64,000 bases of DNA from Acidimicrobiaceae bacterium. Its GTDB lineage: Bacteria > Actinomycetota > Acidimicrobiia > Acidimicrobiales > RAAP-2. The stretch covers positions 1 through 64,000 of the forward strand of contig PLWZ01000082.1 of assembly GCA_003151235.1 (NCBI GenBank), read 5' to 3'. The notes beneath the pieces were generated by a model. That model searched no databases, had not been told where the DNA came from, and saw only the letters and a program-made list of their open reading frames with translations. A program made the position numbers and the translations under genes. Positions 15,785-37,649 of this stretch are shown here, piece by piece (position 1 is the first letter of the stretch; every line of letters begins with the position of its first letter).

Positions 15785-15796
15785 ATGGAGGAAGAC

Positions 15797-18233: not shown

Positions 18234-18290
18234 CAATCGGCGCCGACAGCCTCGTCGCCGCACAGAATTGGGCGTGGACCGTACCCAATC

Positions 18291-18299: not shown

Positions 18300-18356
18300 A
18301 CGATCCGCTAATAAGTGGCACCGATTTCGCATCTCCCGAAGGATTGAGGGTTCCGC

Positions 18357-19580: not shown

Positions 19581-19662
19581 CCCAGCCACCACCACAGCAA
19601 GCAGCCGCAACAACCACCAATCGGACGTGAATTTTAGTCTCGCGAACCTCAAAGGAGCGGAA

Positions 19663-21390
19663 ATGTCGACCTATGACATCGTCATCAAAGGGGGCACCGT
19701 CATCGACGGGCTCCGCACGCCGCGCTTCCGGTCTGACATCGCCATCAAGGACGGCAGGATTGCCATGATCGGCTCGGTCGACGCTGCCGACGGGGCCGAG
19801 GTAGTCGACGCCTCCGGCAAGATCGTCGCTCCGGGCGCCGTCGACCTGCATACGCACTACGACAGCCAGGTGTTCTGGGACCCGTGGTGCACAATGTCTG
19901 GTTGGCACGGCGTCACGAGCGTGGTGATTGGCAACTGCGGCTTCGGGTTCGCGCCGTGCCGTCCTGAAGACCAGGACCGGGCCATGCTGACCGTCTCTCG
20001 GAACGAGGCGGTGCCGCTGAAGACGATGCGGGCTGGGATGCCCTGGGACTGGGTGACGTTCCCGGAGTTCCTCGACAGTATTGACCGCACGCCGAAGGGC
20101 GTGAACATGATGTCGCTGGTGCCGTTGGCGCCGCTGTACGCCTACGTCGTTGGGGTCGAAAAGGCGAAGGAGCAGCGGGCGAGCGACGAGGAGCTAGAGA
20201 AGATGTGCCAGCTCCTCGAAGAGGCGATGGAGGCCGGCGGATGCGGCTGGAGCGCGCAGCTGTTGGGTGACGTCTTCAACGTCCAGCGCGACTTCGATGG
20301 CTCCCCGATGGTCACCGACATGATGACCGAGCGCGAGCTGGTCGCCTTCTCGCGGGCTCTTCGCAAGATCGGCCGGGGTACAACCCAGATCACGGGTTCA
20401 ATGGACGCCGCGGCACTGATCGCCCGGGAGAGCGGCCGGCCGATCATCTGGAACGCGTTGGGCGTCACCGGCGAGGTTAACCAGCACGGTGAGATGCGGT
20501 ACCCGCACCGGGAGGCCATTGAGCGCCTGCGGCAGCTAAACGAAGAGGAGGGCGTCCGCGTGTGGGCCCAGGCCAGCACGGTGCGGTTCCGTTCGGAGAT
20601 CAACCTCGAGGAGTACAACCTCATGGACGCAGACGCCGCGTGGCGCGAAGCCTGTCTCGGCACCATCGAGGAGAAGATTGTCAAGTTTGCCGACCCGGAG
20701 CGTCGCGTCGGCCTGAAGGCGGCGATCGAACAGTACGGCGGCGGGTTCGGTGCGGCCCGTTACCCATTGGCCGAGATCAAAGTCAACTGGATCTCGAGCG
20801 ACGCACCCAACGCTCAGGAGTTGAAGGAGCGGTACGAGGGTTGGACGATCGGTGAGATCGCGGCTCGCGAGGACAAGGACCTCCTCGACGCCATGCTCGA
20901 CGTCGCCGTCGCCACCCACCTGAAGGCGGGATTCGGCACGACCATGGTCGAGATGGACCCGGAGGCGATGCGAGAGGTGGCCAACTCGACGATGGCGCTC
21001 CCGGGCGTCAGCGACGGCGGCGCGCACACGAAGTTCATCACGACCGGTCGGTACGCCACCGAGATGCTGGCCCACTGGGTGCGCGAGTGCGAGATCATGT
21101 CGCTTGAGGACGCCCATTGGCGCCTGTCGGCCTACCCGGCGATGGCGGTCGGCCTAAAGGACCGTGGGTCGATCGCGGAAGGTAAGCCGGCCGATGTCGT
21201 CGTCTACGACCCCGACACCGTCGATTGCCTCGATCAGGAGCGGCTGTTTGACTACCCGGCCGGCGAGTGGCGGCTTGTCCAGAAGGCCGTCGGCTACGAC
21301 CGGATCATCGTGAACGGTCAGACGACGTTCATCGATGGCGAGTGTACCGACGCTACGCCGGGCCAGCTGCTGCGGCATGGCGCGGCGTAG
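19663..21390 (+). CDS. N-acyl-D-amino-acid deacylase-like amidohydrolase (amidohydrolase-3)
   Basis: 575 residues from the ATG with AAAGGAG eight bases upstream; the longer frame from 19627 lacks conservation. Features: VIKGGTVIDGLRTPRFRSDIAIKDGRI composite barrel opening, DLHTHYDSQ metal motif, GNCGFG, SDGGAHT and the closing RGSIAEGKPADVVVYDP. It belongs to the D-aminoacylase branch of cyclic amidohydrolases and should hydrolyse an amide or cyclic amide. Placed between two amidohydrolase-2 paralogues, it probably works on the same substrate series, although this is only context. Length matches the actinobacterial subgroup. Confidence 0.9.
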   Translation: MSTYDIVIKGGTVIDGLRTPRFRSDIAIKDGRIAMIGSVDAADGAEVVDASGKIVAPGAVDLHTHYDSQVFWDPWCTMSGWHGVTSVVIGNCGFGFAPCRPEDQDRAMLTVSRNEAVPLKTMRAGMPWDWVTFPEFLDSIDRTPKGVNMMSLVPLAPLYAYVVGVEKAKEQRASDEELEKMCQLLEEAMEAGGCGWSAQLLGDVFNVQRDFDGSPMVTDMMTERELVAFSRALRKIGRGTTQITGSMDAAALIARESGRPIIWNALGVTGEVNQHGEMRYPHREAIERLRQLNEEEGVRVWAQASTVRFRSEINLEEYNLMDADAAWREACLGTIEEKIVKFADPERRVGLKAAIEQYGGGFGAARYPLAEIKVNWISSDAPNAQELKERYEGWTIGEIAAREDKDLLDAMLDVAVATHLKAGFGTTMVEMDPEAMREVANSTMALPGVSDGGAHTKFITTGRYATEMLAHWVRECEIMSLEDAHWRLSAYPAMAVGLKDRGSIAEGKPADVVVYDPDTVDCLDQERLFDYPAGEWRLVQKAVGYDRIIVNGQTTFIDGECTDATPGQLLRHGAA

Positions 21391-21402
21391 GGGGGACCGG
21401 GT

Positions 21403-22620
21403 ATGACCACTGGCAACGAGGCGATCAAGACGATCTTCGACGCCGACAACCACTACTGGGAGACGAGCGATGCCTTCACCCGCTATCGCGATCCCAAGTT
21501 CGCGGAGCGGGGCGTGCGCCTCGTAGACCTCGATGGCAACGGCAAGCCGCGCTACGTGATCGGCGACCGGATCCATCCGATCCTCCCTGGGCCCGGCGAC
21601 GTGCACCCGCGCCCCCGGCCCGGCGCGCTGTACGACTACTTCGCCGGCAAGAGCGACAAGGCTCGCCTGGGCGATGAGCTCTCATGCGAGGACCCGAAGG
21701 CGCACCCGGAGTGGTTCGATCGCGACGCCCGCCTGCGGTGCATGGACGAGCAAGGGGTCGAGGCCCTGTGGATATTCCCGTCGCAGGCCGTCTGCATGGA
21801 GGGCCCGATGCAGCCTGACATCGAGGCGTCCGTACATATCCTCAGCGCGTTTAACCGTTGGCTCGAGGAGGATTGGGGCTTCTCTTACCGGAACCGGATC
21901 TTCGGCGTGCCATTCCTGACCCTGTCCGACGTCGAGCTCGCCGTCGAGGAGCTCGAGTGGTGTATCGAGCACGGCGCCCGCGTCGTCTCGATTCGCAACG
22001 GTCCCGCCTTCACGCCCGACGGCACGAAGTCGCCGGCCGACCCAATGTTCGATCCGTTCTGGGCCCGCGTTGCCGAAGCCAAGGTGGTCGTGGCACCGCA
22101 TGCGGGCTTCGAGGACGGCTACACGAAGGTTAATCAGGCGATTTCGGAGGAGTGGGGGCGGTCGGTAACTTCGACGGGAATGGGTGACGCGGCGGCATCG
22201 ACGATCATCTCCATGCTCATGAAGCACCGCCTAGTTCACGACTTCGCCGCCGTCCTCGTGGCCGACAAGCTCTTCGAGCGCAACCCGGGTGTGCGCGTCG
22301 CCTACATCGAGAACGGCGGTACGTGGGTGGGCGACCTGCTTCAAGGCCTCCAGGTGCTGCACGGCCAGAACCCCGGCATGTTCACGAAGAACCCGGTTGA
22401 CCAGTTCCGCGACAACTGTTGGGTGGCACCGTTCGTCGAGGACAGCGTTGCCGATCTGGCGCAGCACCTCCCGGTCGAGCGGATCTTGTTCGGGTCGGAC
22501 TGGCCACACGCGGAGGGACTCCGGCATCCGCGCGACTTCTTCAAGAACGTCGAAGAGTTCTCGATTGACGACCAGCGCAAGATCATGGTGGAGAACGCCC
22601 GTCAGCTGACGCTCGCGTAG
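21403..22620 (+). CDS. Amidohydrolase-2 family metal-dependent hydrolase (paralogue 3)
   Basis: 405 residues. FDADNHYWETSDAF opens the barrel, VVVAPHAGFEDG lies mid-barrel and ILFGSDWPHAEG carries the catalytic Asp. It is the closest paralogue of the 18357 product. It starts 13 bases after the deacylase stop with GGGGGA before the ATG, so the two are co-transcribed. A GC-rich hairpin follows immediately. Two near copies in one operon suggest either a heteromer or two substrates of one pathway. Confidence 0.9.
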   Translation: MTTGNEAIKTIFDADNHYWETSDAFTRYRDPKFAERGVRLVDLDGNGKPRYVIGDRIHPILPGPGDVHPRPRPGALYDYFAGKSDKARLGDELSCEDPKAHPEWFDRDARLRCMDEQGVEALWIFPSQAVCMEGPMQPDIEASVHILSAFNRWLEEDWGFSYRNRIFGVPFLTLSDVELAVEELEWCIEHGARVVSIRNGPAFTPDGTKSPADPMFDPFWARVAEAKVVVAPHAGFEDGYTKVNQAISEEWGRSVTSTGMGDAAASTIISMLMKHRLVHDFAAVLVADKLFERNPGVRVAYIENGGTWVGDLLQGLQVLHGQNPGMFTKNPVDQFRDNCWVAPFVEDSVADLAQHLPVERILFGSDWPHAEGLRHPRDFFKNVEEFSIDDQRKIMVENARQLTLA

Positions 22621-23916: not shown

Positions 23917-24537
23917 CTAAGTCTTCCGGTTGGTAATCCCCCGGATGAAGATCTCAGCGAAAGGCTTTGCCACGTCGTGAGCCGACAGGCTCCCGCCCGG
24001 CTTGAGCCACAGGTAGCTGTAGTTGTGCATACCGAGCCACGCGAGAGCGGTGAGCCTCGCGTCGACGTCACCGAACTCCCCGCACTCGATGCCGGCCTGC
24101 AGGATCGCCTCGACCTTCTGCTCGTACTCATGTCGACGCACGTGGAACCGCTCAGCGCGTTCGCCGGTGAGTCCGTGGAACTCATGGAGGACCACCCACG
24201 AATGATCGGGGTAGCAATAGATGATCTCCAGCAGTTCGTCCCCGAGCAGGGCCAGCTGAGCCGATGGTGACCGCTCCGTTTCCACGGCTCGATCAGCGCT
24301 GAGCATCACTTCATCCATGACGCGGTCGTGGATGGCGGCGAGAAGCTCCTCTTTCGAACCTATGTAGTGGTAGAGCGCTCCCTTACCGAGACCGTTGGCC
24401 GCACAGAGTTCCGCGATCCCTGTGGCGTGGTATCCGCGCTGCGCAAAGACCCGTGCCGAGGTGTCCACGATCGCCTCGTACCGCGCTCGCCAGTTCTGGC
24501 TTCGCCGAGGTTCGACACGCGCTTCAGCAAGCGGCAT
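23917..24537 (-). CDS. TetR-family regulator, KstR2-like C-terminal domain
   Basis: 206 residues from the ATG at 24537; an upstream GTG-containing extension to 24582 is possible. The helix-turn-helix is VDTSARVFAQRGYHATGIAELCAANGLGKGALYHYIGSKEELLAAI. The C-terminus (WLKPGGSLSAHDVAKPFAEIFIRGI) resembles the end of KstR2, the repressor of steroid-ring catabolism that senses a CoA thioester. It is divergent from the diketone-hydrolase/P450 operon, whose upstream region contains an inverted repeat related to a second site before the Rieske operon. I infer that it controls both. Confidence 0.88.
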   Translation of the reverse strand: MPLAEARVEPRRSQNWRARYEAIVDTSARVFAQRGYHATGIAELCAANGLGKGALYHYIGSKEELLAAIHDRVMDEVMLSADRAVETERSPSAQLALLGDELLEIIYCYPDHSWVVLHEFHGLTGERAERFHVRRHEYEQKVEAILQAGIECGEFGDVDARLTALAWLGMHNYSYLWLKPGGSLSAHDVAKPFAEIFIRGITNRKT

Positions 24538-24943
24538 GGGCACCGACGCTACACGGGTGCGTGTCGTTGGCGGATTCCACAACGGGGCAGTCGATCAAGC
24601 TGAAGCGATCGCATCGGGTGGGTTTGTGCGGACAAACGCGGCTAGTGACCCGACTAGCGGTCGAACACCGTCATGGAGCCGGTCGCAACGGCTGGATCGC
24701 CCGCCCCGACAAACGTCCGGCCGATCGTCGCACCCACGAGGCGGCCGGGCTCGCGAAAGGGCTGGCCGGGCGCCACCGACCGTCGGTGTCGACCGATGGT
24801 TCGTGGCCCCTTTCCCCCGCTCGGCTAGGTCCAGATAGCGGCAGCTATACGGTCGGGACCAGGTGCGAGCTATGGGGTACTTTGAGCCGCCATAGGCTGT
24901 ACTGGTCGGTACAAAAGTGCCTGCGAGTTCCGGAGGGGGACGG
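24538..24943. other. Divergent regulatory region
   Basis: About 400 bases between the TetR gene and the hydrolase/P450 operon with no supported gene. It contains the candidate operator at 24898-24913 and a strong GGAGG ribosome-binding site at 24932-24936. Its length leaves room for two promoters. Confidence 0.5.
24898..24913. promoter_or_regulatory. Candidate operator TGTAC-N6-GTACA
   Basis: A perfect 5-base inverted repeat with spacer TGGTCG. Read on the minus strand with one flanking base, the site begins TTGTACCGACC, and the same eleven bases occur at 28841-28851 inside the palindrome before the Rieske operon. It lies about 30 bases before the first gene of the hydrolase/P450 operon, the expected position for repression. 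Confidence 0.5.
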
Positions 24944-25795
24944 TTGGTAAAGCGAACCCGTTTCGCGGAGTACAAGGACAGCTACGCAAACTACAAGTTC
25001 GAGCTGAGCGAAGAGGGCATCCTCTTCATGCAGTGTCACACCGACGGCGGGCCCCTCCATTGGGAGTGGGCGTCACATGACGGGATGTCCGATGCGTTCG
25101 CCGATGTCGCCGGGGATCGCGAGATCAGGGCGGTGATCCACACCGGCACCGGGGACACCTACAACCACAGTTGGGGCCGGCCGGTCACAGACAGCGGCAA
25201 GCCGCTGTACAACGCGTATGCCGACGCCGAGGGTGTGTCGATCATGGACGAGAAGTCTTGGTATGGCCGCATGCTCCTCGAGAACCTGTTGGCCATCGAT
25301 GTACCCATGGTTGCCGCGATCAACGGCCCCTGCAGCATGCACTCCGAGGTGCCGCTTCTCATGGACATCGTGCTCGCGTCCGAGGACGCATGGTTCCAGG
25401 ACCTCTCGCACTTCCCGCGCGGGATGGTGCCCGGCGACGGGCAGCATGTGATGTGGGAGGCGCTTGTCGGTCCGAGTCGCGCCCGCTACCTGCTGTTGAC
25501 GGGGTACAAGCTGACGGCCCAAGAGGCCCGGGAGTGGGGCGTGGTCCACGAGGTCCTGTCCAAGGACAAGCTCCTCGATCGGGCATGGGAGATCGCTCGT
25601 CAGATCGCCATGCGCCCGCCGATCGCAACCCGGAACACGCGTCATATCCTCGTGCAAAACCTCAAGCGGGCCTTCCTGGACGAACTCGACCACGGCCTTC
25701 AGGCCGAGATGTGGGCCCAACGGCAGTTTTTCCCGTTCGGTGCGGGAATGCAGGGCCTCGACCGGCCATGGGACCAGAAACCGTGGTCCGACTGA
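24944..25795 (+). CDS. 6-Oxocamphor-hydrolase-like beta-diketone hydrolase (crotonase fold)
   Basis: 283 residues from a TTG with GGAGG seven bases upstream. From family knowledge, 6-oxocamphor hydrolase (Rhodococcus OCH/CamK) cleaves a cyclic 1,3-diketone by a retro-Claisen reaction using His45, His122, His145, Asp154 and Glu244. Here the equivalents are His45 (ASHDGM), His133 (SMHSEV), His156 (LSHFPRG), Asp165 (PGDGQH) and Glu255 (QAEMW). The last four share an 11-residue offset, so every catalytic position is kept. Other shared segments are LLENLLAIDVP and the YLLLTGYKL stretch. CoA-ester hydratase function is less likely. It heads an operon with a P450 and ferredoxin, matching the order of chemistry in camphor breakdown: hydroxylate, oxidise to the diketone, cleave. 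Confidence 0.9.
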   Translation: MVKRTRFAEYKDSYANYKFELSEEGILFMQCHTDGGPLHWEWASHDGMSDAFADVAGDREIRAVIHTGTGDTYNHSWGRPVTDSGKPLYNAYADAEGVSIMDEKSWYGRMLLENLLAIDVPMVAAINGPCSMHSEVPLLMDIVLASEDAWFQDLSHFPRGMVPGDGQHVMWEALVGPSRARYLLLTGYKLTAQEAREWGVVHEVLSKDKLLDRAWEIARQIAMRPPIATRNTRHILVQNLKRAFLDELDHGLQAEMWAQRQFFPFGAGMQGLDRPWDQKPWSD

Positions 25796-25807
25796 AATGA
25801 CCGCGGC

Positions 25808-27148
25808 ATGACGACAGATGCGACAGCGGTGAAGTGGCCTGCGTGGGAGGACGCCGCGTTCTACCTGCAGGAACCCGACGAGATGTACGCGTCGATTGCG
25901 GCCCAGCGGCATGCCGCCCCCGTGTACTGGTACGAACCGGCCGGCTACCCCACCGGGCTGTGGGTGCTGTCCAAGTGGGAGGACCAGCGTTTTGTCGGCA
26001 GCCATCCCGAGCTGTTCTCTAGCCGTTTCGGGTTTGCCATCGGTGACGCAAGCGACCCGTCGACCGTCATCCACCAGCTTCCCGATTGGGCGCAGGAAAA
26101 GATCCGGGAGGGGAACCTCAGCCCGGCCGAGACCCGGAGGGCGATCGCGCACGGGAAGCTCTCCATGGGGGACCCCAATTTTGAAAGCTTGATGATCTCG
26201 GACCCGCCTCGCCACGGCCAGATCCGCAGCATCCTGATGAAGGCGTTGCGACCCAGTCTCGTCCGCAGCCTCAAGCCCCGCATCGCCGAGATCGCCGACG
26301 AGTTCATCGGCGAGATCGAACCGGACGCCGAGGTCGACTTTGTCACCACGGTCGGACGCATCCCGGCGGCGCTCATGACCGATTTGATCGGCGTGCCGCG
26401 AGAGATGCGGGAGCGGTTCATCGAGATGGCCTCGGCGCAGATGCAGGCGATCACCATCGATCCCAAGCGCGATCCGGCCGAGGCGCAGCGGATCAACAAG
26501 CTGGTCGAGGAGTTCCATTCCTACTGCGGTGAGCTCCTCGCCGATCGACAGGACCGCGCAGGTGAAGAGGGCGACCTGACCAGCATCATCGCCGGTTCGG
26601 AGTACGACGGCGGCCCGGTACCGGACGGCATGGCAATCTCGTTCATGCACACGTTCGTCAACGCCGGTGAGACGACCAGGGCGCTACTCGGATTCGTCGC
26701 GAGGGCATTGGCTGAGCATCCCGACCAGCGCCGGCTCGTGGCCGAGCAGCCCGACCTGGTGGCCAACGCCATCGAAGAGACGCTGCGCTACTACCCGCTG
26801 AACTGGTCCGGGTGCCGCACCGCCATCCAAGACGTGGAGCTGGGCGGGCAACTCATCCACAAGGACGACTACGTCCTCATGGCCTACGCCAGCGCCAACC
26901 GTGACGAGGATGTCTGGGATCGACCAGACGAGTTCGACGTCACCCGGTCCTTCGACAAGGACCACCAGTCGTTCGGCTACGGCGAGCACTCTTGTCCGGG
27001 CGCGCTGCTCGTGCGGACCGACGCCGGGATTATCCTCGAACGACTGTTGGCCCGGTTCCCGGACTGGGAACTCACGAGCGAGCCGCAGCGTTGGGCGAAC
27101 CCATTTCTTCAAGGTCTCGGGACCGTGCCGGTACGGTTCCACTCGTGA
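25808..27148 (+). CDS. Cytochrome P450 (bacterial class I)
   Basis: 446 residues. The heme loop reads FGYGEHSCPG with the thiolate ligand Cys396, the I-helix oxygen groove NAGETT and the K-helix EETLR are present. Electrons probably come from the [3Fe-4S]-type ferredoxin encoded two genes on; no dedicated ferredoxin reductase is adjacent. It starts 12 bases after the hydrolase stop. Context suggests hydroxylation of an alicyclic ring to set up diketone formation. It is distinct in sequence from the P450 at 43086. Confidence 0.93.
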   Translation: MTTDATAVKWPAWEDAAFYLQEPDEMYASIAAQRHAAPVYWYEPAGYPTGLWVLSKWEDQRFVGSHPELFSSRFGFAIGDASDPSTVIHQLPDWAQEKIREGNLSPAETRRAIAHGKLSMGDPNFESLMISDPPRHGQIRSILMKALRPSLVRSLKPRIAEIADEFIGEIEPDAEVDFVTTVGRIPAALMTDLIGVPREMRERFIEMASAQMQAITIDPKRDPAEAQRINKLVEEFHSYCGELLADRQDRAGEEGDLTSIIAGSEYDGGPVPDGMAISFMHTFVNAGETTRALLGFVARALAEHPDQRRLVAEQPDLVANAIEETLRYYPLNWSGCRTAIQDVELGGQLIHKDDYVLMAYASANRDEDVWDRPDEFDVTRSFDKDHQSFGYGEHSCPGALLVRTDAGIILERLLARFPDWELTSEPQRWANPFLQGLGTVPVRFHS

Positions 27149-27327
27149 GCGACCTGACCTTCCACTACGTGCTCGACTGCCCGTGTGGGACGACCCTGAC
27201 CGGCCTGTCCGAGGACGAGATCGTGGAGGTGGCTTTCGCTCATCTGCGCGAGGTTCACCCGGACATGGCGGATGACTACGAGCGTGACCACGTCCTGTTC
27301 ATGGCCCGAAAGCTCGTCCGAAGGTGA
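27145..27327 (+). CDS. Small DUF1059-like protein
   Basis: 60 residues with a GTG start overlapping the P450 stop (GTGA). The pattern VLDCPCGTTLTGLSEDEIVEVAFAHLREVHPDM matches the DUF1059 layout: a Cys-containing strand, an acidic turn, and a helix ending in H-x-x-x-x-H. Such proteins are small, cytosolic and of unknown role. Position between a P450 and its ferredoxin suggests an accessory to electron transfer or stability, but nothing in the sequence proves it. Confidence 0.7.
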   Translation: MSDLTFHYVLDCPCGTTLTGLSEDEIVEVAFAHLREVHPDMADDYERDHVLFMARKLVRR

Positions 27328-27353
27328 GCCGTGACGGCGACTGAGGAGAGGAC

Positions 27354-27548
27354 ATGAAGGTGACCATCGACGAGGAGCGATGCGACGCCCACGGCGTCTG
27401 CGTCTCGGCGTGTCCCGAGGTCTTCGCCCTCGACGACGACGAGGATGTGGTCCGGGTCCTGGACGAAAACCCGGACGAGTCCCTTCGCGAGAGTCTCTTC
27501 AAAGCGGTGCAGGGTTGTCCCAAGGCCGCCATAACGGTGGAGGGTTGA
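27354..27548 (+). CDS. P450-type ferredoxin, [3Fe-4S]
   Basis: 64 residues. Cysteines 10, 16, 20 and 55 lie in C-DAHGV-C-VSA-CP and GCP. The position of the second cluster Cys of a [4Fe-4S] ferredoxin is His13, the usual sign of a [3Fe-4S] cluster in actinobacterial P450 partner ferredoxins. The acidic tract LDDDEDVVRVLDENPDES fits docking to a P450. It lies in the same operon as the P450 and should be its immediate electron donor. Confidence 0.93.
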   Translation: MKVTIDEERCDAHGVCVSACPEVFALDDDEDVVRVLDENPDESLRESLFKAVQGCPKAAITVEG

Positions 27549-27551
27549 ACG

Positions 27552-28025
27552 GTGAATGCTGACGAGCTGTCCGGTGTCGTCGACCGACTCGCGGTCACCG
27601 ACGTCGTGGTCCGCTACTTCGAGTTGGTGGATACGAAGGGGTGGGACCAGATGCACGAGGTCTTCACCGAGGACACCACCGCCCGGTGGACGCCGGACTC
27701 CCTCATGGAGGGCCGGTCCAAAGTGGTCGGGGCGATGCAGCACATGTCAGGGAGCGCCGAGATCGTCACCTATCACCACGTCGCTTCCATGACCCCGGTG
27801 ATCCACGGTGACGACGCCGAAGTCGTGGTTCACGTCCGCGCCATGCACCATGGCGCCGGCCCGCGAACCGGAAAGTTCTACGAGAGTTTCGGCATCCAGC
27901 CGACCCGCTTGGTCCGGACACCAGAGGGTTGGCGGATCAGCCACCACGATTGGAACGTCGCGCTGAAGACCGGAAACTTGGAGGATCTGTTCGCTCCGGA
28001 GATCGCCGTCGGGAAGCGGCACTGA
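27552..28025 (+). CDS. SnoaL-like / NTF2-fold protein
   Basis: 157 residues, GTG start three bases after the ferredoxin stop. The fold is recognisable from LAVTDVVVRYFELVDTKGWDQMHEVFTEDTTARW and the final TPEGWRISHHDWNVALKTGN. Several histidines (YHH at the middle, HHD near the end) could serve acid-base chemistry. SnoaL relatives include cyclases, isomerases and oxygenase small subunits. Its place in the P450/diketone-hydrolase operon suggests an isomerase or hydratase step, which is inference only. Confidence 0.82.
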   Translation: MNADELSGVVDRLAVTDVVVRYFELVDTKGWDQMHEVFTEDTTARWTPDSLMEGRSKVVGAMQHMSGSAEIVTYHHVASMTPVIHGDDAEVVVHVRAMHHGAGPRTGKFYESFGIQPTRLVRTPEGWRISHHDWNVALKTGNLEDLFAPEIAVGKRH

Positions 28026-28069
28026 GGTGGGGCCGGAACGATCGGTCGTCACGACGGACTGAGACGGCT

Positions 28070-28834
28070 TTGCATCCACGCCTCTCGGTTAACGCGATCT
28101 GTTCCATGAACCAATCGCTGGAAGACGACTTGGTCCTGTGGGCCGATCTCGGGATTGACAACGTCGGGCTCATCTCCCCGAAGCTCGAACTCGCCGGATG
28201 GGATGCGGCCCGGAAGGCCGTCCTCGACGCCGGCCTGTCCGTATCGAGCATGTCGTGCTACCGGGACGGGATCGTGCCATCGCTGGAGTTCGCCGGCGCA
28301 ATCGGAACGCCGGTGCTCTACATCATCACGGGAAGCGCGGGCTCGACGCCGTGGGAAGAGGCCGCCGCTAAGTTCTGCGAGGAAATGGCGCCGCACGTGG
28401 CTCGCGCCAACGAGCTCGGTGTGCGGGTTGCTCTCGAGCCGACGAATCCCCTGCGCACCGACGTGAGCTTCGTGCATTGCGTCCGTGACGCCATGGACCT
28501 CGCAGTCCTGGCCGACATGGCGATCGTCGTCGACTTCTACTCGTCGTGGTATGAGCGCGGCCTGGACGAGCTCGTGCACAAGCACATCGATCTTGTGGGG
28601 CTGGTCCAGATCTGCGACTACAAGCTCGGCACCTTCGACATGCCGAACCGCTCCGCCATTGGTGAGGGGAACATCCCAGTGGAGCGGATGATGGGTTTGA
28701 TGCTCGAGGCCGGGTACGAAGGTCCGTTCGACCTCGAGATCCTCGGTCCGCGGATCGAGGCGGCCGGCTACCGAGATTCGATCGCCGCCAGCATCGAGCG
28801 GGCCGGCGAGATGCTGAGCCGCCTCGGCGCCTGA
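28070..28834 (+). CDS. Sugar-phosphate isomerase/epimerase-like TIM barrel
   Basis: 254 residues from a TTG (HPRLSVNAICSMNQSLEDDL), the only in-frame start that gives a normal N-terminus for the AP-endonuclease-2/xylose-isomerase fold. Metal-ligand-type residues are visible in ALEPTNPL, AIVVDFYSSW and PFDLEIL. Family members isomerise or epimerise sugars and inositols, but catabolic clusters of this type often hold members with other substrates. It ends the P450 operon; the next transcript begins at the promoter near 28858. Confidence 0.78.
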   Translation: MHPRLSVNAICSMNQSLEDDLVLWADLGIDNVGLISPKLELAGWDAARKAVLDAGLSVSSMSCYRDGIVPSLEFAGAIGTPVLYIITGSAGSTPWEEAAAKFCEEMAPHVARANELGVRVALEPTNPLRTDVSFVHCVRDAMDLAVLADMAIVVDFYSSWYERGLDELVHKHIDLVGLVQICDYKLGTFDMPNRSAIGEGNIPVERMMGLMLEAGYEGPFDLEILGPRIEAAGYRDSIAASIERAGEMLSRLGA

Positions 28835-28844
28835 TGATTGTTGT

Positions 28845-28858
28845 ACCGACCGGTCGGT
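28845..28858. promoter_or_regulatory. Perfect 14-bp palindrome, candidate TetR operator
   Basis: ACCGACCGGTCGGT is its own reverse complement and touches the proposed -35 box. With the flanking bases it starts TTGTACCGACC, the same string found on the minus strand at the operator upstream of the diketone-hydrolase operon. This is a typical TetR-type site and a repressor bound here would block the promoter. Confidence 0.65.
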
Positions 28859-28919: not shown

Positions 28920-30194
28920 ATGGCTCGCTATCCGAAGCCGGCAGCAGGGAGCTGGACGGAGCACTACCCGCAGCTCGGTACTGGTCCGCTCTCGTACGAG
29001 GATTCGATTTCTCCGGAGTGGTACCAGCACGAGCGGGAGGCGATCTTCAAGCGGGCATGGCTCCAGGTCGGGCGGCTCGAGCAGATTCCGCGCACCGGAA
29101 GGTATTTCACCAAGGACATCGCCGCCGCCAACACGTCGATCGTCGTGGTGCGCGACGGTGACGACGTGCGCGCCTTTCACAACGTTTGCCGACACCGCGG
29201 CAACAAGCTCGTGTGGCAGGACTTCCCGAACGAGGATACGAGCGGAACGGTGCGCCAGTTCACCTGCAAGTACCACGGGTGGCGGTATGGACTCGACGGT
29301 GCCTGCGTGTTCGCGCAGCAGGAGGGCGAGTTCTTCAACCTCGACAAGGCCGACTACGGGTTGGTGCCCGTGCACTGTGAAGTGTTCGCAGGATTCATCT
29401 TCGTGAACTTCTCGGAACAACCGGCCCAATCGCTCCGCGAGTTCCTCGGTCCGATGCTGCTCGGGGTGGAGGATTACCCCTTCGGGCAGATGACCGACCG
29501 GTACGCCTTCCGAGTCGAGTGTCGTTCGAACTGGAAGGTGTTCTCGGACGCGTTCATGGAGTTTTACCATGCACCCGTCGTGCACGTTGGCCAGCACCCG
29601 AGCCAGTTGCGGGCTGCGATCACGCAGATGGGATACGAGGCGCCGCACTATCAGGTCGAGGGCCCGCATGGGTTGGTTACGACGGCGGGTTCACTACACC
29701 GGGTGTGGGACATGCCGAAGGAGAACGTGAAGCCGGCCGACCTCGCCACGCGCAGCGGGCTGTTCGGACCGTGGGACAAGTCGGACCTCGGCGAGCTGCC
29801 GCCGGGCATCAACCCCGGCAAGATCGACCCCTGGGGACTTTCGTCGTTCCAGTTCTTCCCTAATTTCGCGATCTTGATCTGGGAAGCCGGTTGGTACAAC
29901 ACCCACCAGTTCTGGCCCACCTCGCACAACACGCTCGTCTTCGAGGGCAACGTTTACTCGTTGCCGGCCGAGTCGGCCTCGGAACGGGTCGGACGAGAGA
30001 TGGCGGCGGTGTCGTTCAAGGAGTACTCGCTGCAGGACGCCAACACGCTTGAGGCCACGCAGCTGGGCCTGGAATCTGGGGTCATCGACCAGTTCCCGCT
30101 GAACGACCAGGAGGTGCTGGTGCGCAACTTCCACAAGGCCACGGCCGACTGGGTACACGAGTACCAGCGCGAGCCGGCGGGGGTGCGGGCGTGA
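28920..30194 (+). CDS. Rieske non-heme iron oxygenase, alpha subunit (copy 1)
   Basis: 424 residues. Rieske ligands are Cys90, His92, Cys116 and His119; the gap between the pairs is 23 residues, longer than the usual 15-17, owing to an extra DFPNEDTSG turn. The mononuclear iron site has His217 and His222, and the position that bridges to the Rieske centre is Glu214 instead of Asp, with Asp210 before it. Glu at this position is known from carnitine oxygenase CntA. No classical beta subunit is present; the next gene encodes a 110-residue helical protein that recurs beside the homologue at 54094. The probable reductase is the KshB-like protein at 55774. Substrate unknown. Confidence 0.92.
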   Translation: MARYPKPAAGSWTEHYPQLGTGPLSYEDSISPEWYQHEREAIFKRAWLQVGRLEQIPRTGRYFTKDIAAANTSIVVVRDGDDVRAFHNVCRHRGNKLVWQDFPNEDTSGTVRQFTCKYHGWRYGLDGACVFAQQEGEFFNLDKADYGLVPVHCEVFAGFIFVNFSEQPAQSLREFLGPMLLGVEDYPFGQMTDRYAFRVECRSNWKVFSDAFMEFYHAPVVHVGQHPSQLRAAITQMGYEAPHYQVEGPHGLVTTAGSLHRVWDMPKENVKPADLATRSGLFGPWDKSDLGELPPGINPGKIDPWGLSSFQFFPNFAILIWEAGWYNTHQFWPTSHNTLVFEGNVYSLPAESASERVGREMAAVSFKEYSLQDANTLEATQLGLESGVIDQFPLNDQEVLVRNFHKATADWVHEYQREPAGVRA

Positions 30195-30523
30195 TGGCAC
30201 TCCTTCCGAGTGATTTCGCCGATTTTGAGCAGTTCGCCGCCAGGTGGTCGCTAGCGACCGAGCGCGAGCGCTGGGCCGAGCGAATGTCGAGCTCGATCGA
30301 CGACATGCAGGCCTTTTACGACGCCATCATCCCCGAGGTCGGGGAAGCGATCGCCTACTGCGACAAGTTTCCACTCGACGACATGCCCGAGGATGCGGTC
30401 AACTTGTTGCGGTTGATCTACTCGTTTGTGATGGTGTCGTTCGCAGTTGAGCTCTGGCGCCAGCAAAGTCCTCCGGACACCCTCGGCACGCAGTTTGAAC
30501 GGATCAGCGAACCCCTTCCCTGA
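30194..30523 (+). CDS. Unrecognised Rieske-associated small protein (copy 1)
   Basis: 109 residues from an ATG that overlaps the Rieske stop (TGATG); a GTG three bases earlier is also possible. I do not recognise a family. The sequence looks all-helical, acidic at the N-terminus, with one conserved Cys in YCDKFPLDDMPEDA and a hydrophobic stretch LLRLIYSFVMVSF that is too interrupted for a clear membrane span. The product of 55365 is clearly homologous and also sits directly behind a Rieske alpha gene. This strict pairing suggests a small subunit, chaperone or assembly factor for this Rieske subtype. Confidence 0.85.
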   Translation: MALLPSDFADFEQFAARWSLATERERWAERMSSSIDDMQAFYDAIIPEVGEAIAYCDKFPLDDMPEDAVNLLRLIYSFVMVSFAVELWRQQSPPDTLGTQFERISEPLP

Positions 30524-30545
30524 GACCGAACTCGAAGGAGACGTC

Positions 30546-31808
30546 ATGACGACGCTGGCTGAGAACGAGCTGATGACCCTCGTGGAGGGTGAGGCTCCTA
30601 TGGGCCGGCTCATGCGGGCGAACTACTGGCTGCCCTTCGGGCTCTCGGATCAGCTCGTGCACGGCCAGGCACCGATGCCCGTCCGCCTGCTGGGCCAGAA
30701 CTACGTCGCCTTCCGGGCCGAGGACGGCCGGGTCGGTTTTCTCGACGAGCTGTGCCCGCATCGCCGAGCGTCGCTCCTCCTGGCTCGAGCGGAGGGCAAC
30801 GGCCTGCGTTGCATCTATCACGGGTGGAAGATGGACGTCTCGGGCTGCGTCGTCGAGTGCCCGAACCAGGCCGTGAGGGCCGAACAATTCGCGGCGAGCG
30901 TGCCCGTGGTCCATTTCCCGGTGCACGAGTGTGGTGGGTTGGCCTGGGTGTGGCTTGGTGGCACCGATGCGCCCGCCTTCCCCGAGCTCCCCTTCGCCGA
31001 CGAGGACCTCTATCGCTACTGGTGCGTCTCGCGTGTCCCCTGCAACTGGCTCCAAGGGATCGAGGGCACGATCGACTCGGCCCATGTCGGCCTGCTGCAC
31101 CAGACGTGGATCGCTGAGGCCGCCAAGATGGCCGAACACTCCAACCTGACGATGGCTCTCGACCAGCCACCGAGGTACGAGACCCAGTCCACCCCCTATG
31201 GGCTGCGTGCAGCGGCGCTGCGTAAGACTGCCGAAGGCCAGACCTACGTGCGGATCACAGAGCACCTGATGCCGCTCGTGACCATCACCCCAGTGGGCCG
31301 CTCGATGCCCCGTGCGGGATCGGTCTTCGTTCTCTCGCCGATGGACGACACCCACCACCTGCTGTTCTTCGGGTACTTCGGGGACACCGCGCACAGCGCC
31401 AAGCCGCCGACCGAGATCTGCATGCAGGATGCCGAGTACCAACCGGACCCGCGGGACTACACGGGTGTCCGAGGCGACCGATGGACCGCGTGGGGCCAAG
31501 ATCGCGCCCTCATGGCTGCCGGCCATTTCACCGGATTCGGGCGGAGCCTGCTCGAGGAGGACGCGGTCATCCAAAGCAGCATGGGCCCGATCATCGATCG
31601 CAGCAAGGAACACCTCTCCTCTAGCGATGTCGCGGTGGCGACCGCCAGGCAGATGCTGCTGGACGCGCTGAGTGCCGCCGGGTCCGGGGAGCTTCCGCCC
31701 GGCAGTGCCCTGGCCGCAGAGGGCGCTCGACTTCCGAACGCCCTGGAAGTCGTCGTACCCGAGGGCGAGCGTTGGGAGGACGCCGCGCTCGATCAGGTCA
31801 CCGCCTGA
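30546..31808 (+). CDS. Rieske oxygenase, phthalate/vanillate demethylase-like
   Basis: 420 residues from the ATG with AAGGAG five bases upstream. Rieske ligands Cys70, His72, Cys89 and His92 have normal spacing. The catalytic iron motif GTIDSAHVGLLH keeps the canonical Asp bridge and two His. The overall layout (N-terminal Rieske, long C-terminal half) is that of single-component-type terminal oxygenases such as phthalate 4,5-dioxygenase and VanA. It lies 22 bases after the small-protein gene, so two different Rieske oxygenases share one transcript. Their substrates may be successive intermediates. Confidence 0.9.
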   Translation: MTTLAENELMTLVEGEAPMGRLMRANYWLPFGLSDQLVHGQAPMPVRLLGQNYVAFRAEDGRVGFLDELCPHRRASLLLARAEGNGLRCIYHGWKMDVSGCVVECPNQAVRAEQFAASVPVVHFPVHECGGLAWVWLGGTDAPAFPELPFADEDLYRYWCVSRVPCNWLQGIEGTIDSAHVGLLHQTWIAEAAKMAEHSNLTMALDQPPRYETQSTPYGLRAAALRKTAEGQTYVRITEHLMPLVTITPVGRSMPRAGSVFVLSPMDDTHHLLFFGYFGDTAHSAKPPTEICMQDAEYQPDPRDYTGVRGDRWTAWGQDRALMAAGHFTGFGRSLLEEDAVIQSSMGPIIDRSKEHLSSSDVAVATARQMLLDALSAAGSGELPPGSALAAEGARLPNALEVVVPEGERWEDAALDQVTA

Positions 31809-31819: not shown

Positions 31820-32308
31820 ATGGAGCATCGCGAACCAACCACGTTCGCCGATTGGCACGCGATCAACACCTTGCTCGTGACCTACGCCGAGCATGTGGAT
31901 GCCGGTCGGTACGCCGATGTGGGGGCGATGTTCGAGCATGCCACCTATCGCATCGAGCATTCCGATGGGGAGCGCGTCTCAAGCTACGAGGGCAGCACGC
32001 AGGTTAAGGCGTTCTGCGAGCAGACCCGGATATATCCCGACGGCACGCCGCGAACGAAGCACGTGATCACCAATGTGATCATCGACGTCGAAGGGGACCG
32101 GGGAAGGGCCCGGTCCTACGGCACCGTCTTCCAGCAGACCGACGAGTTCCCCCTCCAACCGATCGCCTCTGGGCGCTACGTCGACCGGTTTGAGCGAATT
32201 GACGGCACCTGGTGGTTCGTCGACCGTGTCATGTCCGGGTTCCTGTTGGGCGATCGCAGCCACCACGTTGTGTGGCCGGGCGGCACCCCAGTGGCTCCCG
32301 AGCCGTGA
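31820..32308 (+). CDS. SnoaL-like / NTF2-fold protein
   Basis: 162 residues. The helix-rich start FADWHAINTLLVTYAEHVDAGRYADVGAMFEHATYRI and later TKHVITNVIIDVEGDRGRARSYGTVF and FERIDGTWWFVDRVM define the fold, which resembles the small beta subunit of ring-hydroxylating dioxygenases. It follows a Rieske gene by 11 bases, so a beta-subunit-like role is one possibility. Without a partner test, isomerase or cyclase function is equally open. Confidence 0.82.
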   Translation: MEHREPTTFADWHAINTLLVTYAEHVDAGRYADVGAMFEHATYRIEHSDGERVSSYEGSTQVKAFCEQTRIYPDGTPRTKHVITNVIIDVEGDRGRARSYGTVFQQTDEFPLQPIASGRYVDRFERIDGTWWFVDRVMSGFLLGDRSHHVVWPGGTPVAPEP

Positions 32309-32321
32309 CATCCCGATCGTG

Positions 32322-33860
32322 ATGCGAGAAGACACGATCCACTCCGACGTCAACTGGTACGGAGTCCTTGCGCACCATGCGACCGTCACGCCCGACAAGG
32401 CGGTTGCGATCTTCGAATCGAAGTCGGTTACCTACGGCGAGATGGCTGTACGTGCGACGTCGCTGGCGGCCGGATTGCATGAACGCGGCATCGAGTCGGG
32501 AGACGTGGTCGCTCTCCTGTCATACAACTCAACAGAATTTCTGGAGACGATCTTCGCCGCCAACTACCTCGGCGCAATCATCATGCCGATCAACTGGCGC
32601 CTCGCCGCTCCGGAGGTGCGGTACCTCCTCGAACACTCCGAAGCGCGGGCACTCGTATGTGACGAGGCGCTCATCCCGTTGGCCGACAAGGCGACGACCG
32701 GCCTGGAAACCAAGCTCGTACGAGCCTGTGTGTCGATCCAGGCCCCTGACGGGTGGATACCGCTGGCCGAACTAAGGAGCGGGTCGCCTGCGCCGCCGGC
32801 GGTGGGCATGGCCGGCGACGACATCCACCGTTTGATGTACACGTCGGGTACGACGGGACGCCCCAAGGGGGTGATGCTGACCCATGCCAACCTGGCATGG
32901 AAGAACCTGGCCCACATCGTCCAGTTCGGATTCACCAGCTCGGACCTCGGCCTCGCCTGTGGCCCGCTGTATCACGTCGGGGCCCTCGACCTCACCACGA
33001 CGTCGCTGGTCGCCGCAGGGGCGACCACCATCATCCACCGGAGTTTCGAGGCCTCTGCGGTGGTCGAAGAGATCGAGCGATCGACGGTGACCACCGTCTG
33101 GCTCGCGCCGGCGATGGTAAACGCCATCATGGCGCTCCCTGACATCGAGAAACGAGACCTCGCTTCTGTCCGGCTGATCATCAACGGCGGCGAGAAGATG
33201 CCGATCCCCTTGATAGAGCGGCTCCAACGGACCTTTCCCTTCGCCTGGTTCGCCGACGCCTACGGCCTCACCGAGACGGTATCGGGCGACACCTTCCTCG
33301 ACCGGGACAGCATCGTGACCAAGCTCGGCAGCGTGGGTCGCCCCTGTCTCTACGTCGAGTTGGATATCTGGGACGACGAGGGCAAATCGCTCCCCGCGGG
33401 CGAGCGCGGCGAGGTCGTCCTGCGGGGTCCGAAGGTCTTCAAAGGCTACTGGCGGGACCCCGAGGCGACGGCCACCGCTTTCGCCGGCGGCTGGTTCCAC
33501 ACCGGGGACATCGGGGTCCGGGACGAGGACGGTTACCTCTTCATCGTCGACAGGCTCAAGGACATGATCCTGTCCGGTGGCGAGAATGTGGCCGGGTCGG
33601 AGATCGAGCGCGTGCTCTACGAACACCCGGCGGTGCTGGAAGCGGCGGTCATCGGGCGCCCGGACGACCGATGGGGCGAGGTGCCGGTGGCCTTCGTCGC
33701 GTTGCGACCGGACGCGACTGCGACGGCGGCAGAGCTGGTCGAGCACTGCGGGGGCCAGCTCGCCCGATTCAAGGTGCCAAAAGAGGTGTCCTTCGTCGAT
33801 GCGCTTCCTCGGAACCCCTCCGGCAAGGTGCTCAAGCGCGAGCTCCGAGACCGTGTCTGA
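32322..33860 (+). CDS. Long-chain-type acyl-CoA ligase
   Basis: 512 residues; ATG at 32322, with an immediately preceding GTG as alternative. ANL motifs: YTSGTTGRPKGVMLTH, AYGLTETVSGD, WFHTGDIGVRDEDGY, and C-terminal PRNPSGKVLKRELR with the catalytic Lys. It carries the standard fatty-acid ligase domain order and length. In context it would activate the ring-opened acid produced by the upstream oxygenases. It is the fourth CoA ligase in the window. Confidence 0.93.
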   Translation: MREDTIHSDVNWYGVLAHHATVTPDKAVAIFESKSVTYGEMAVRATSLAAGLHERGIESGDVVALLSYNSTEFLETIFAANYLGAIIMPINWRLAAPEVRYLLEHSEARALVCDEALIPLADKATTGLETKLVRACVSIQAPDGWIPLAELRSGSPAPPAVGMAGDDIHRLMYTSGTTGRPKGVMLTHANLAWKNLAHIVQFGFTSSDLGLACGPLYHVGALDLTTTSLVAAGATTIIHRSFEASAVVEEIERSTVTTVWLAPAMVNAIMALPDIEKRDLASVRLIINGGEKMPIPLIERLQRTFPFAWFADAYGLTETVSGDTFLDRDSIVTKLGSVGRPCLYVELDIWDDEGKSLPAGERGEVVLRGPKVFKGYWRDPEATATAFAGGWFHTGDIGVRDEDGYLFIVDRLKDMILSGGENVAGSEIERVLYEHPAVLEAAVIGRPDDRWGEVPVAFVALRPDATATAAELVEHCGGQLARFKVPKEVSFVDALPRNPSGKVLKRELRDRV

Positions 33861-33946: not shown

Positions 33947-34759
33947 ATGACGCTCGAGACGATCGACCTCGCCCCCCGGATCGGCACCGAGATCCGGGCC
34001 AACGCCGCCGCATTGCTGAGCGGTGAGCACGCCGCGCAGATCCGCGAGGTACTGGGGGAGCGCGGGCTGCTCCTGTTCCGGGAGCTGGACCTCGACGACC
34101 GCCAACAGGTCGCCTTCGCCAGGACACTTGGCGACGTCTTGGACCAGGGCGAGGATCACATCTACAAGGTGACGCTGGACAAGACGGTGACCAAGACGGC
34201 CGACTACCTGCTCGGAACGTTCTTCTGGCACATCGACGGCACCACCGACGCGATCCCGTCCCGGGCCTCGCTGTTGAGTGCCCGCCACCTGTCCGAGACC
34301 GGAGGGCGGACCGAATGGGCGAACACCTATGCCGCGTACGAAGACCTGCTGCCAGCGGAGAAGGGCACCGTCGACGGGTTGCGAGTCGTGCACTCGGCAG
34401 AGACGATCGAACGTGTCGCCCGACCCGATTTCACCGAGGAGGATGTCGCCGACTGGCGGACCCGCCCGGTTCGGTCGCATCCGCTGGTATGGACCCACGC
34501 GTCGGGACGCAAATCGCTGGTCCTCGGAGCGACCGCCTCGCATGTTGAGGATATGGACCCGGACGAGAGTCGAGCCCTGCTGGACCGATTATTGACACAG
34601 GCCACCCAAGACCGGTACGTGTACCAGCACGAGTGGCGGGTGGGTGATCTCGTGATCTGGGACAACACCGGCACGATGCACCGGGTGGTCCCCTACGCCG
34701 CCGACAGCGGTCGCCTGATGCACCGGACGACCCTCATCGGCGAGGAACCGTTGGCCTGA
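33947..34759 (+). CDS. TauD/TfdA-family Fe(II)/2-oxoglutarate dioxygenase (copy 1)
   Basis: 270 residues. Iron ligands are His95 and Asp97 in FWHIDGT and the distal His245 in GTMHRV; the 2-oxoglutarate-binding Arg is in the following LMHRTTL. The family hydroxylates unactivated carbons (taurine, phenoxyacetates, alkyl chains) with decarboxylation of 2-oxoglutarate. A close relative begins at 63300. AGGAG-like sequence precedes the ATG. It continues the operon of oxygenases and may clip an ether, sulfonate or side chain. Confidence 0.9.
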   Translation: MTLETIDLAPRIGTEIRANAAALLSGEHAAQIREVLGERGLLLFRELDLDDRQQVAFARTLGDVLDQGEDHIYKVTLDKTVTKTADYLLGTFFWHIDGTTDAIPSRASLLSARHLSETGGRTEWANTYAAYEDLLPAEKGTVDGLRVVHSAETIERVARPDFTEEDVADWRTRPVRSHPLVWTHASGRKSLVLGATASHVEDMDPDESRALLDRLLTQATQDRYVYQHEWRVGDLVIWDNTGTMHRVVPYAADSGRLMHRTTLIGEEPLA

Positions 34760-35801: not shown

Positions 35802-36554
35802 ATGAGTGACTGGAAAGAGCCCCGCGTCGCGGTGGTCACGGGAGGGGCTTCGGGAATCGGCCTCGCCATCAGCAGGCGGTTGGCGCGCGACGGAGCGGCC
35901 GTGGCCATCTTCGACCTCGACGGTGAGGCCGCCGAGGCCGCTGCCTCGACCATCCGCAATGTCGGCGACCAGGCCATCGGTCTCTACGTCGACGTCACCG
36001 ACCGCGCCCGGATCGAGGAGGCGGTCGGGGAGGTGGCAGAGCAGTTCGGAGCCCCGCTCATTTTGGTGAACAACGCCGGGCGGCCCAGCTTCGTGCCGTT
36101 CCTCGAGATCAGTCTCGAGCACTTGCATCAGATCCTCGAGGTCAACCTCGTCGGGTCGTTCCATTGCTGCCAGGTCGTGCTACCCCACATGCTCGAGGCG
36201 GGGTGGGGTCGAATCGTCAACATCTCGTCATCGAGCACCTACAGCGGGACGCCGCGGATGGCGGCGTACGTGTCGTCCAAGTCGGCGATCAACGGTCTCA
36301 CCAAGACCCTGTCCAGGGAGTTTGCCCCTCGTGGGGTGACGACCAACGCCATCCCGCCCTCGTTCATCGACACGCCGATGCTCCGCGCATCGGCTGTTGG
36401 GGGCGATCTCGATGTGCAGGCCTCCATCGCGACGACACCGGTCCGTCGCCAGGGTCAGCCCGAGGACATCGCGGCGGCCTGCTCGTTCCTCTGCCGTGAC
36501 GAGGCCAGTTACATCACCGGCCAGATCCTTGGTGTCGACGGGGGAAGGTCCTGA
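35802..36554 (+). CDS. Short-chain dehydrogenase/reductase
   Basis: 250 residues of classical SDR with TGGASGIG at 13-20, Asp38 pointing to NAD(H), NNAG, catalytic Ser in ISSSS, Tyr156 and Lys160, and a terminal GVDGGRS. It could oxidise cis-diols or hydroxyls formed by the upstream Rieske enzymes. A GGGAGG lies close before the ATG. It remains in the same orientation as the preceding operon. Confidence 0.9.
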   Translation: MSDWKEPRVAVVTGGASGIGLAISRRLARDGAAVAIFDLDGEAAEAAASTIRNVGDQAIGLYVDVTDRARIEEAVGEVAEQFGAPLILVNNAGRPSFVPFLEISLEHLHQILEVNLVGSFHCCQVVLPHMLEAGWGRIVNISSSSTYSGTPRMAAYVSSKSAINGLTKTLSREFAPRGVTTNAIPPSFIDTPMLRASAVGGDLDVQASIATTPVRRQGQPEDIAAACSFLCRDEASYITGQILGVDGGRS

Positions 36555-36692: not shown

Positions 36693-37649
36693 ATGCGCAC
36701 CGGATTGATGATCGGATCCGACCGGGAGCACCCTCGTGCAGAACGGCTGTCGGCCCTCATCACCGAGGTCCAGGAGGCTGAGAAGGCCGGATTTGCCTCG
36801 GTGTGGATACCGCAGGTCCCCGGGTACCTCGACGCCATGACCGCCGTCGCAGTGCTTGGCCGGGCCACCGATCGAATCGAGTTGGGTACCTCGGTCATGC
36901 CGATCCAGTCGCGCCATCCGATCCCGATGGCCCAGCAGGCACTCACCACCCAGCTCGCCAGCGACGGCCGCTTCAGATTGGGCCTGGGGCCGTCTCACCA
37001 CTGGTTAATCCAGGACCAGTGGGGTCTTTCCTACGATCGGCCGGCGCGCCTGGTGCGCGACTACCTCGAGGTCCTGCACCAGGCCTTGGCTGGACCCGGC
37101 TCGGTCGACGTTGAGAACGAGGCGTTTCGGGTGCACTGCACGATGAACGTCACCGATGCCGTGCCGATGCCGATCCTGCTGGCGGCGTTGGCGCCGGTCA
37201 TGCTTCGCATCGCAGGCGAGCAGACGTCGGGGACAATTCTGTGGATGGCCGACGAGCGAGCCATCAGCGAGCACGTGGTCCCGCGCATCACCAAGGCGGC
37301 CACCGAGGCGGGCCGACCCGCGCCGCGCATCGTGGCCGGGGTGCCGGTGGTCCTGTGCCCGAGCGCCGAGGTCGAATCGGCACGACAGACCGCCAAAGAG
37401 ACGCTCGGCCACGCCGAGTTCTCGCCCAACTACACCCGGCTGCTCGAACTCGGCGACGCGCGTGAGATCGACGACGTCATGGCCGTCGGGGACGAATCCG
37501 CCATCGCGGCGCGGCTGAAGCGCTACCAGGACGCCGGCGTCACCGACCTTATGGCCCGAACCGTCCCCATCGGGGAGACCGCCGAGGCCCGCCTGGAGTC
37601 GAAGCGACGGACCCTGGAAGCCCTGGCCGCGGTCAGCGGGGAGTTCTGA
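36693..37649 (+). CDS. LLM-class F420-dependent oxidoreductase (copy 1)
   Basis: 318 residues of luciferase-like TIM barrel: AEKAGFASVWIPQVP, TDRIELGTSVMPIQSRHP, LGLGPSHHWLIQDQWGL. The motif content is that of the actinobacterial F420-dependent subgroup rather than FMN monooxygenases. The protein at 62057 shares the same blocks throughout and is a paralogue. Likely hydride transfer between F420 and a ketone, alcohol or enoyl compound. GAAAGGA precedes the ATG. Confidence 0.88.
   Translation: MRTGLMIGSDREHPRAERLSALITEVQEAEKAGFASVWIPQVPGYLDAMTAVAVLGRATDRIELGTSVMPIQSRHPIPMAQQALTTQLASDGRFRLGLGPSHHWLIQDQWGLSYDRPARLVRDYLEVLHQALAGPGSVDVENEAFRVHCTMNVTDAVPMPILLAALAPVMLRIAGEQTSGTILWMADERAISEHVVPRITKAATEAGRPAPRIVAGVPVVLCPSAEVESARQTAKETLGHAEFSPNYTRLLELGDAREIDDVMAVGDESAIAARLKRYQDAGVTDLMARTVPIGETAEARLESKRRTLEALAAVSGEF

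Follow-up and report, generated by a model that had tools for sequence, protein, structure and literature searches.

We analysed a 64,000-nucleotide stretch of the genome of an Acidimicrobiaceae bacterium (contig PLWZ01000082.1 of assembly GCA_003151235.1, here called the window), in which six genes at positions 24944-28834 form an operon. The protein encoded by the first gene has 6-oxocamphor hydrolase (OCH) and Anabaena beta-diketone hydrolase (ABDH) as its nearest solved relatives, and ordinary hydratases are much more distant from it in both sequence and fold; it is not an OCH orthologue and is a member of a distinct, fully supported and mainly actinobacterial subfamily. We consider it probable that this protein is a CoA-independent crotonase-fold C-C hydrolase, which opens a cyclic 1,3-diketone made by a cytochrome P450 and/or a Rieske oxygenase together with a short-chain dehydrogenase/reductase (SDR). 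An earlier note on this DNA had given the order and the coordinates of the six reading frames, all of which are correct:

24944..25795, plus strand: OCH/ABDH-family beta-diketone hydrolase-like protein, 283 aa, TTG start (Pfam ECH_1)
25808..27148, plus strand: cytochrome P450 (Pfam p450, 82 bits; haem motif FGYGEHSCPG)
27145..27327, plus strand: DUF1059-like protein, 60 aa, with a CPCG motif; its start overlaps the P450 stop
27354..27548, plus strand: P450-type single-cluster ferredoxin (Fer4_13, 52 bits), second ligand Cys replaced by His
27552..28025, plus strand: SnoaL-like protein of the NTF2 fold (Pfam SnoaL_4, 80 bits)
28070..28834, plus strand: xylose-isomerase-like TIM barrel protein, TTG start (AP_endonuc_2, 64 bits)

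A phmmer search against all PDB chains places OCH (1o8u) first at an E-value of 2.5e-59 and ABDH at 1.2e-55, while the next crotonase chain follows only at 5.8e-19. The AlphaFold2 model of the protein (pLDDT 87.3, pTM 0.88) allowed the overlay on OCH that the earlier note had proposed: the predicted fold superposes on OCH (1szo) with a Z score of 38.0 and a root-mean-square deviation of 1.2 A over 245 residues, compared with Z scores of 36.6 for ABDH and 30.6 for the best other crotonase. Foldseek likewise finds this crotonase-fold model closest to OCH and ABDH. Membership in the OCH/ABDH family, which the note had claimed from the residues, is thus borne out by the phmmer search, the fold overlay and the active site.

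The five catalytic residues of OCH (His45, His122, His145, Asp154 and Glu244) align to His45, His133, His156, Asp165 and Glu255 of the window protein; all are kept, the last four at the constant offset of +11 that had been noticed before. Across the aligned family, comprising 46 sequences from the subfamily and 37 from more distant relatives, His45 is present in 83/83 and the other four residues in all but one, a subfamily member (L063) whose alignment ends early. The five-residue match was nevertheless rejected as sufficient proof, because four of the five are present in other crotonases of the same window: the proteins at 15785-16588 and 51017-51808, which are annotated as hydratases, carry H-L-H-D-E at the five OCH positions. 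The Mycobacterium avium crotonase 3q1t likewise carries these four residues, and a study of local active sites suggests that it too has beta-diketone hydrolase activity (PMC3584854). As these proteins share the other four residues, sequence comparison singles out His133 as the discriminating residue here. The two window crotonases are possibly further C-C hydrolases mislabelled as hydratases, and in loci L023 and L032 a related crotonase gene immediately precedes that of the OCH subfamily protein.

A maximum-likelihood tree joins the window protein and 44 other rows in one clade, with support of 100/100 and a stem of 1.09 changes per column. Neither OCH, which groups with the proteins of L082 and L093, nor ABDH falls within this clade; each has a branch of its own. 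The tree also sets the OCH/ABDH family, with the window protein, apart from eight ordinary crotonases, whose rows have long branches; the fork that unites the OCH/ABDH family as a whole is weakly supported (81/42). The window protein is 59-98% identical to the members of its subfamily and at most 48% identical to all other members of the family. Two motifs in the active-site loop mark the subfamily: TGTGxxYNxxW is found in 44/46 members and D[EN][KL]xW[YF] in 45/46, against 0/39 of the others in each case. Most members also share the C-terminal tail AQRxFFPxG...PW. Loop length was discarded as a mark, and the two motifs were taken in its place, since a loop of 40 residues also occurs in 7/37 outer-clade proteins.

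Neighbourhoods were compared for 45 subfamily loci, obtained from one scan of species genomes, and for 35 outer-clade loci. The counts are not independent, because the loci are related (many are from mycobacteria) and the query set was itself drawn from subfamily loci. Among the 45 subfamily loci, a Rieske oxygenase homologue is found in 38, a luciferase-like (LLM) oxidoreductase, of the superfamily that is also encoded in the window, in 38 and an aldehyde dehydrogenase (ALDH) in 36, whereas none of the three occurs in the 35 outer-clade flanks. A homologue of a small Rieske partner protein (110-111 aa) is present in 35/45 subfamily loci; further flanking genes encode an SDR (28 loci, against 1 in the outer clades), a CaiB-type transferase (18 against 1), a CitE-like lyase (17) and TauD (13). 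The single SDR and the single CaiB were the only hits in the outer-clade loci. The window holds a Rieske oxygenase with its partner (28920-30523), as well as TauD, SDR and LLM genes, 3' of the operon:

28920..30194, plus strand: Rieske non-haem oxygenase alpha subunit, RO1 (Ring_hydroxyl_A 131 bits, Rieske 53 bits)
30191..30523, plus strand: RO1 partner protein, ROs, 110 aa; overlaps the RO1 stop
30447..31808, plus strand: second Rieske oxygenase, LigXa_C type (Pfam LigXa_C 118 bits, Rieske 52 bits); its real start is probably further in, near 30546
32190..33860, plus strand: AMP-binding acyl-CoA ligase (Pfam AMP-binding, 292 bits)
33947..34759, plus strand: TauD-family dioxygenase (Pfam TauD, 194 bits)
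35802..36554, plus strand: SDR, candidate alcohol-to-ketone dehydrogenase (Pfam adh_short_C2, 206 bits)
36693..37649, plus strand: luciferase-like (LLM) oxidoreductase (Pfam Bac_luciferase, 167 bits)

We tentatively suggest that this recurrent gene set constitutes a so far undescribed actinobacterial pathway of ring cleavage, in which the Rieske oxygenase with its small partner, the SDR and the LLM enzyme would make a cyclic 1,3-diketone that is split by the new OCH subfamily. On this view the set would be distributed among Mycobacteriaceae, Nocardiaceae, Streptomyces, Actinomadura and relatives, and in Acidimicrobiia it would have a P450/SnoaL/TIM module in addition. The P450, ferredoxin, SnoaL-like and TIM barrel genes stand beside the hydrolase gene in only three further loci, all of Acidimicrobiia type (L021, L022 and L061), of which L021 is a near-copy of the window locus (98%). 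The system is patchy: of 198 genomes of the class, only this one has a match to the window P450 at E <= 1e-80, and four have a match to the OCH-like protein at E <= 1e-60.

The pairing of a P450 with an OCH-family gene is itself recurrent. Four unrelated P450 types, with mutual identities of 23-34%, have an OCH-family gene as a same-strand neighbour at a distance of 16-57 bp: those of L021/L022/L061, of L093 (Rhodocyclaceae, true OCH clade), of L121 (same order, different family) and of L047 (Nocardia). In one member of that order (G148), two OCH-family genes are found about 16 kb apart (L121:5999-8085 and L122:4378-5214), and one of them directly follows a P450 unrelated to that of the window. 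The window P450 is not of the type that adjoins true OCH genes: it is 29% identical to P008a, a type which is 60% identical to the P450 beside the OCH-clade gene in L093. Such repeated pairing supports a hydroxylate-oxidise-cleave logic in which the particular P450 is interchangeable. The gene logic of bicyclic ketone breakdown, which the earlier note had read from the operon, therefore stands as far as the recurring combination of P450, ferredoxin and hydrolase is concerned; the camphor-like model behind it is not supported, as the oxygenase that normally adjoins the actinobacterial orthologues is of the Rieske type.

Two copies of an operator-like motif link the operon to this Rieske oxygenase, and a regulator gene is oriented divergently from the operon:

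23917..24582, minus strand: TetR-family regulator, divergent from the operon (Pfam TetR_N 54 bits, TetR_C_24 98 bits)
24901..24914, minus strand: operator-like motif TTGTACCGACCAGT, upstream of the OCH-like gene, 0 mismatches
28841..28854, plus strand: second copy, TTGTACCGACCGGT, upstream of RO1, 0 mismatches

The consensus TTGTACCGACC[AG]GT has exactly two copies in the window and three exact copies in the whole genome. As the motif was defined from the two window copies, its independent tests lie elsewhere. Upstream of the hydrolase gene it recurs exactly in L061 and with one mismatch in L022, where the RO1 homologue is also preceded, at a distance of about 130 bp, by a copy with two mismatches. 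The one exact genomic copy beyond the window (0.04 expected from base composition) is on contig C72, where a 2-oxoacid dehydrogenase E1 gene, taken at its longest reading frame, starts 15 bp further on. A one-mismatch copy on C72 precedes an acyl-CoA dehydrogenase gene, next to a CoA-transferase gene and a paralogue of the TIM barrel (L107:8694-9596) that is 47% identical to the window protein; a thiolase gene is found further along. Another one-mismatch match (C23:7068) falls within the coding sequence of a crotonase, and we regard it as chance. The shared motif suggests that the OCH-like operon and the downstream Rieske oxygenase are probably co-regulated, and the TetR protein, whose gene is also kept next to that of the hydrolase in L021, L022 and L061, may be what binds it. 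The limits of 24944-28834 given earlier for the system are accordingly too narrow, as the motif and the conserved synteny reach the Rieske oxygenase and probably the SDR too.

Computation shows the family and subfamily of the protein, its residues and fold, the operon, its synteny and the motif; the reaction and the order of steps, the roles of the SnoaL-like and TIM barrel proteins and the binding of TetR to the motif are inferred. An oxygenase, either the P450 with its own ferredoxin and/or the Rieske enzyme, would set a hydroxyl group near a ketone, and the SDR would oxidise it to a cyclic 1,3-diketone. OCH acts by a retro-Claisen mechanism, which is the source of the analogy for the following steps: water activated by the His156-Asp165 dyad would attack one carbonyl, the C-C bond would break, and the enolate would be protonated with the assistance of Glu255, His45 and His133. 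The keto acid released in this way would next be converted to its CoA ester and broken down. In the Acidimicrobiia lineage the operon would bring P450 and ferredoxin to this scheme, with the probably co-regulated Rieske oxygenase immediately downstream. Retro-Claisen beta-diketone hydrolase chemistry, already envisaged in the earlier note, is judged probable by analogy, given the relatedness to OCH and ABDH, the fold and the residues. Taken together, the evidence points to a ring-breaking degradation pathway in a soil or peat actinobacterium, and camphor itself is not favoured as the substrate.

Several observations weigh against a diketone-cleaving hydrolase and bring other explanations into consideration. 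Only two solved members of the family with an assigned activity were found (OCH and ABDH), four of the five catalytic residues are also present in hydratase-annotated crotonases, and no SDR gene lies within 24944-28834, the nearest being that at 35802. The active-site loop is unlike that of OCH and ABDH and is modelled poorly (block means of pLDDT 52-79 for residues 71-100), so a changed reaction is possible. It is conceivable, albeit unlikely, that the OCH-like residues have been repurposed in a CoA-dependent crotonase, either an enoyl-CoA hydratase (ECH) or an EchA20-like CoA-ester ring hydrolase, within a Rieske/beta-oxidation pathway. The crotonase fold and the Pfam family ECH_1 would fit such an enzyme, as would the CoA-transferase and CitE-like genes close to many orthologues and the H-L-H-D-E crotonases of the same window; EchA20 of steroid breakdown, a crotonase that performs ring hydrolysis on a CoA ester, provides a precedent (PMC6678751). 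Against it, OCH and ABDH are far nearer than any hydratase in sequence and fold, and all 25 NCBIfam models listed score far below their cut-offs, the best curated hydratase model reaching 106.9 bits where 354 are required. The glutamate pair of enoyl-CoA hydratases is also incomplete: the position of rat ECH Glu144 corresponds by hand alignment to Glu135, whereas that of Glu164, assigned by alignment using the positions given in PMC3584854, is occupied by His156, invariant across the family.

A camphor-type pathway, in which this P450 hydroxylates a bicyclic monoterpene ketone and this enzyme cleaves the resulting bicyclic diketone, would explain why P450 and ferredoxin genes lie directly 3' of the hydrolase gene, and an OCH relative on a Rhodococcus plasmid (65% identical to OCH) is found near P450, ferredoxin and SDR genes. 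We regard it as very unlikely, since the hydrolase does not fall in the OCH branch and has its own clade with 100/100 support, the window P450 shares just 29% identity with the type found beside OCH genes, and most orthologues adjoin a Rieske enzyme and few a P450. Hardly credible is a biosynthetic tailoring operon whose P450, SnoaL-like protein and hydrolase modify a polyketide or terpenoid. P450 and SnoaL families do occur in natural-product clusters, and the nearest NCBIfam P450 models are biosynthetic; among the window genes scanned, however, there is no polyketide synthase or terpene synthase, the surroundings are catabolic (Rieske oxygenases, a Baeyer-Villiger monooxygenase (BVMO)-like protein with an esterase, amidohydrolases, ligases, ALDH), and the motif recurs at the acyl-CoA dehydrogenase/CoA-transferase/thiolase locus. 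A CoA-independent diketone hydrolase thus remains the reading that we prefer.

The other products of the operon carry features of their own. The TTG start of the OCH-like gene (24944) sits shortly 3' of GGAGGGGG, and 12 bp separate this gene from that of the P450, which has both the haem-binding pattern FxxGxHxCxG and a score above the Pfam cut-off; its nearest solved structures are a CYP125MRCA entry and P450terp. P450, DUF1059-like protein and ferredoxin follow the hydrolase directly, as claimed before, with the reservation that DUF1059 (PF06348) stays below the Pfam gathering cut-off (18.4 against 21.1 bits) and the protein is termed DUF1059-like only. Its gene is also present in L021 and L022, and none was detected in L061. 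The ferredoxin has the ligand pattern C10-x2-H13-x2-C16...C53-P (CxxHxxC...CP) and resembles the CYP51-fused ferredoxin 6mcw. The Pfam scores agree with the earlier placement of SnoaL-like and TIM barrel genes in the operon; this operon is nevertheless not alone in having a SnoaL gene beside one of the OCH family, as such a gene also directly precedes that of the OCH relative in L004. Folded as RNA, the gap between these two genes gives an ordinary structure (z -0.5). Gln180 of the TIM barrel lies within the VQICDYK strand and is kept in the paralogue; at this position its relatives, we presume, usually have a metal-binding His.

Elsewhere in the window, a second set of Rieske, partner, reductase and ALDH genes is found at 54094-58456. 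The proteins of about 110 aa at 30191-30523 and 55365-55700 each adjoin an RO1-type Rieske oxygenase, and no Pfam family was found for the copies and homologues scanned; this neighbour may be an unrecognised small oxygenase partner. At 5668-8555, a gene for a BVMO-like flavin monooxygenase is followed by an overlapping alpha/beta hydrolase gene, possibly a second ketone-to-ester ring-opening pair. Four Amidohydro_2-family proteins and one Amidohydro_3 protein are encoded close to the operon (16632-22620 and 37766-39037), and OCH relatives in L003 and L004 also have amidohydrolase-like frames as neighbours.

A sister subfamily with fixed signatures and a repeated oxygenase neighbourhood offers a testable route to a new ring-opening reaction. 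It could help to find which ring compound soil actinobacteria degrade, and C-C hydrolases for use in synthesis could be drawn from it. It also has a bearing on annotated records, in which OCH-family genes are automatically labelled 'enoyl-CoA hydratase/isomerase family protein'. Literature searches on OCH gene clusters, on NpdF (picric acid) as a possible relative and on Rieske/CaiB/TauD clusters yielded nothing useful, which is no proof of novelty, as most subscription papers were outside their coverage.

Among known systems, OCH (1o8u/1szo) is the closest in fold; at 44% identity it shares Trp40 and the full set of five catalytic residues with the window protein, and in the true OCH-clade locus L093 a P450 adjoins the gene too. 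The window protein differs in its separate subfamily, its loop region of 40 rather than 27-28 residues and its C-terminal tail motif, and its locus has a different P450 and a Rieske oxygenase that has the operator-like motif in common with the operon. ABDH (Anabaena Alr4455, 2j5g/2j5s) is 42-44% identical and has the same catalytic residues, whereas Phe replaces Trp40, the branch is cyanobacterial and the loop region is shorter. More distant is M. avium 3q1t (24-25% identity, Z 30.5), which agrees at four of the five positions (His, His, Asp and Glu); the His133 position is absent from its listed matching residues (PMC3584854). Rhodococcus sp. 008 plasmid pR8L1 (NZ_CP015203.1, 330-362 kb) also carries an OCH-family gene near P450, ferredoxin, SDR and acyl-CoA genes; there, however, the hydrolase is of the true OCH type, the P450s are 29-34% identical to that of the window, and the stretch has no annotated Rieske, SnoaL or TIM gene.

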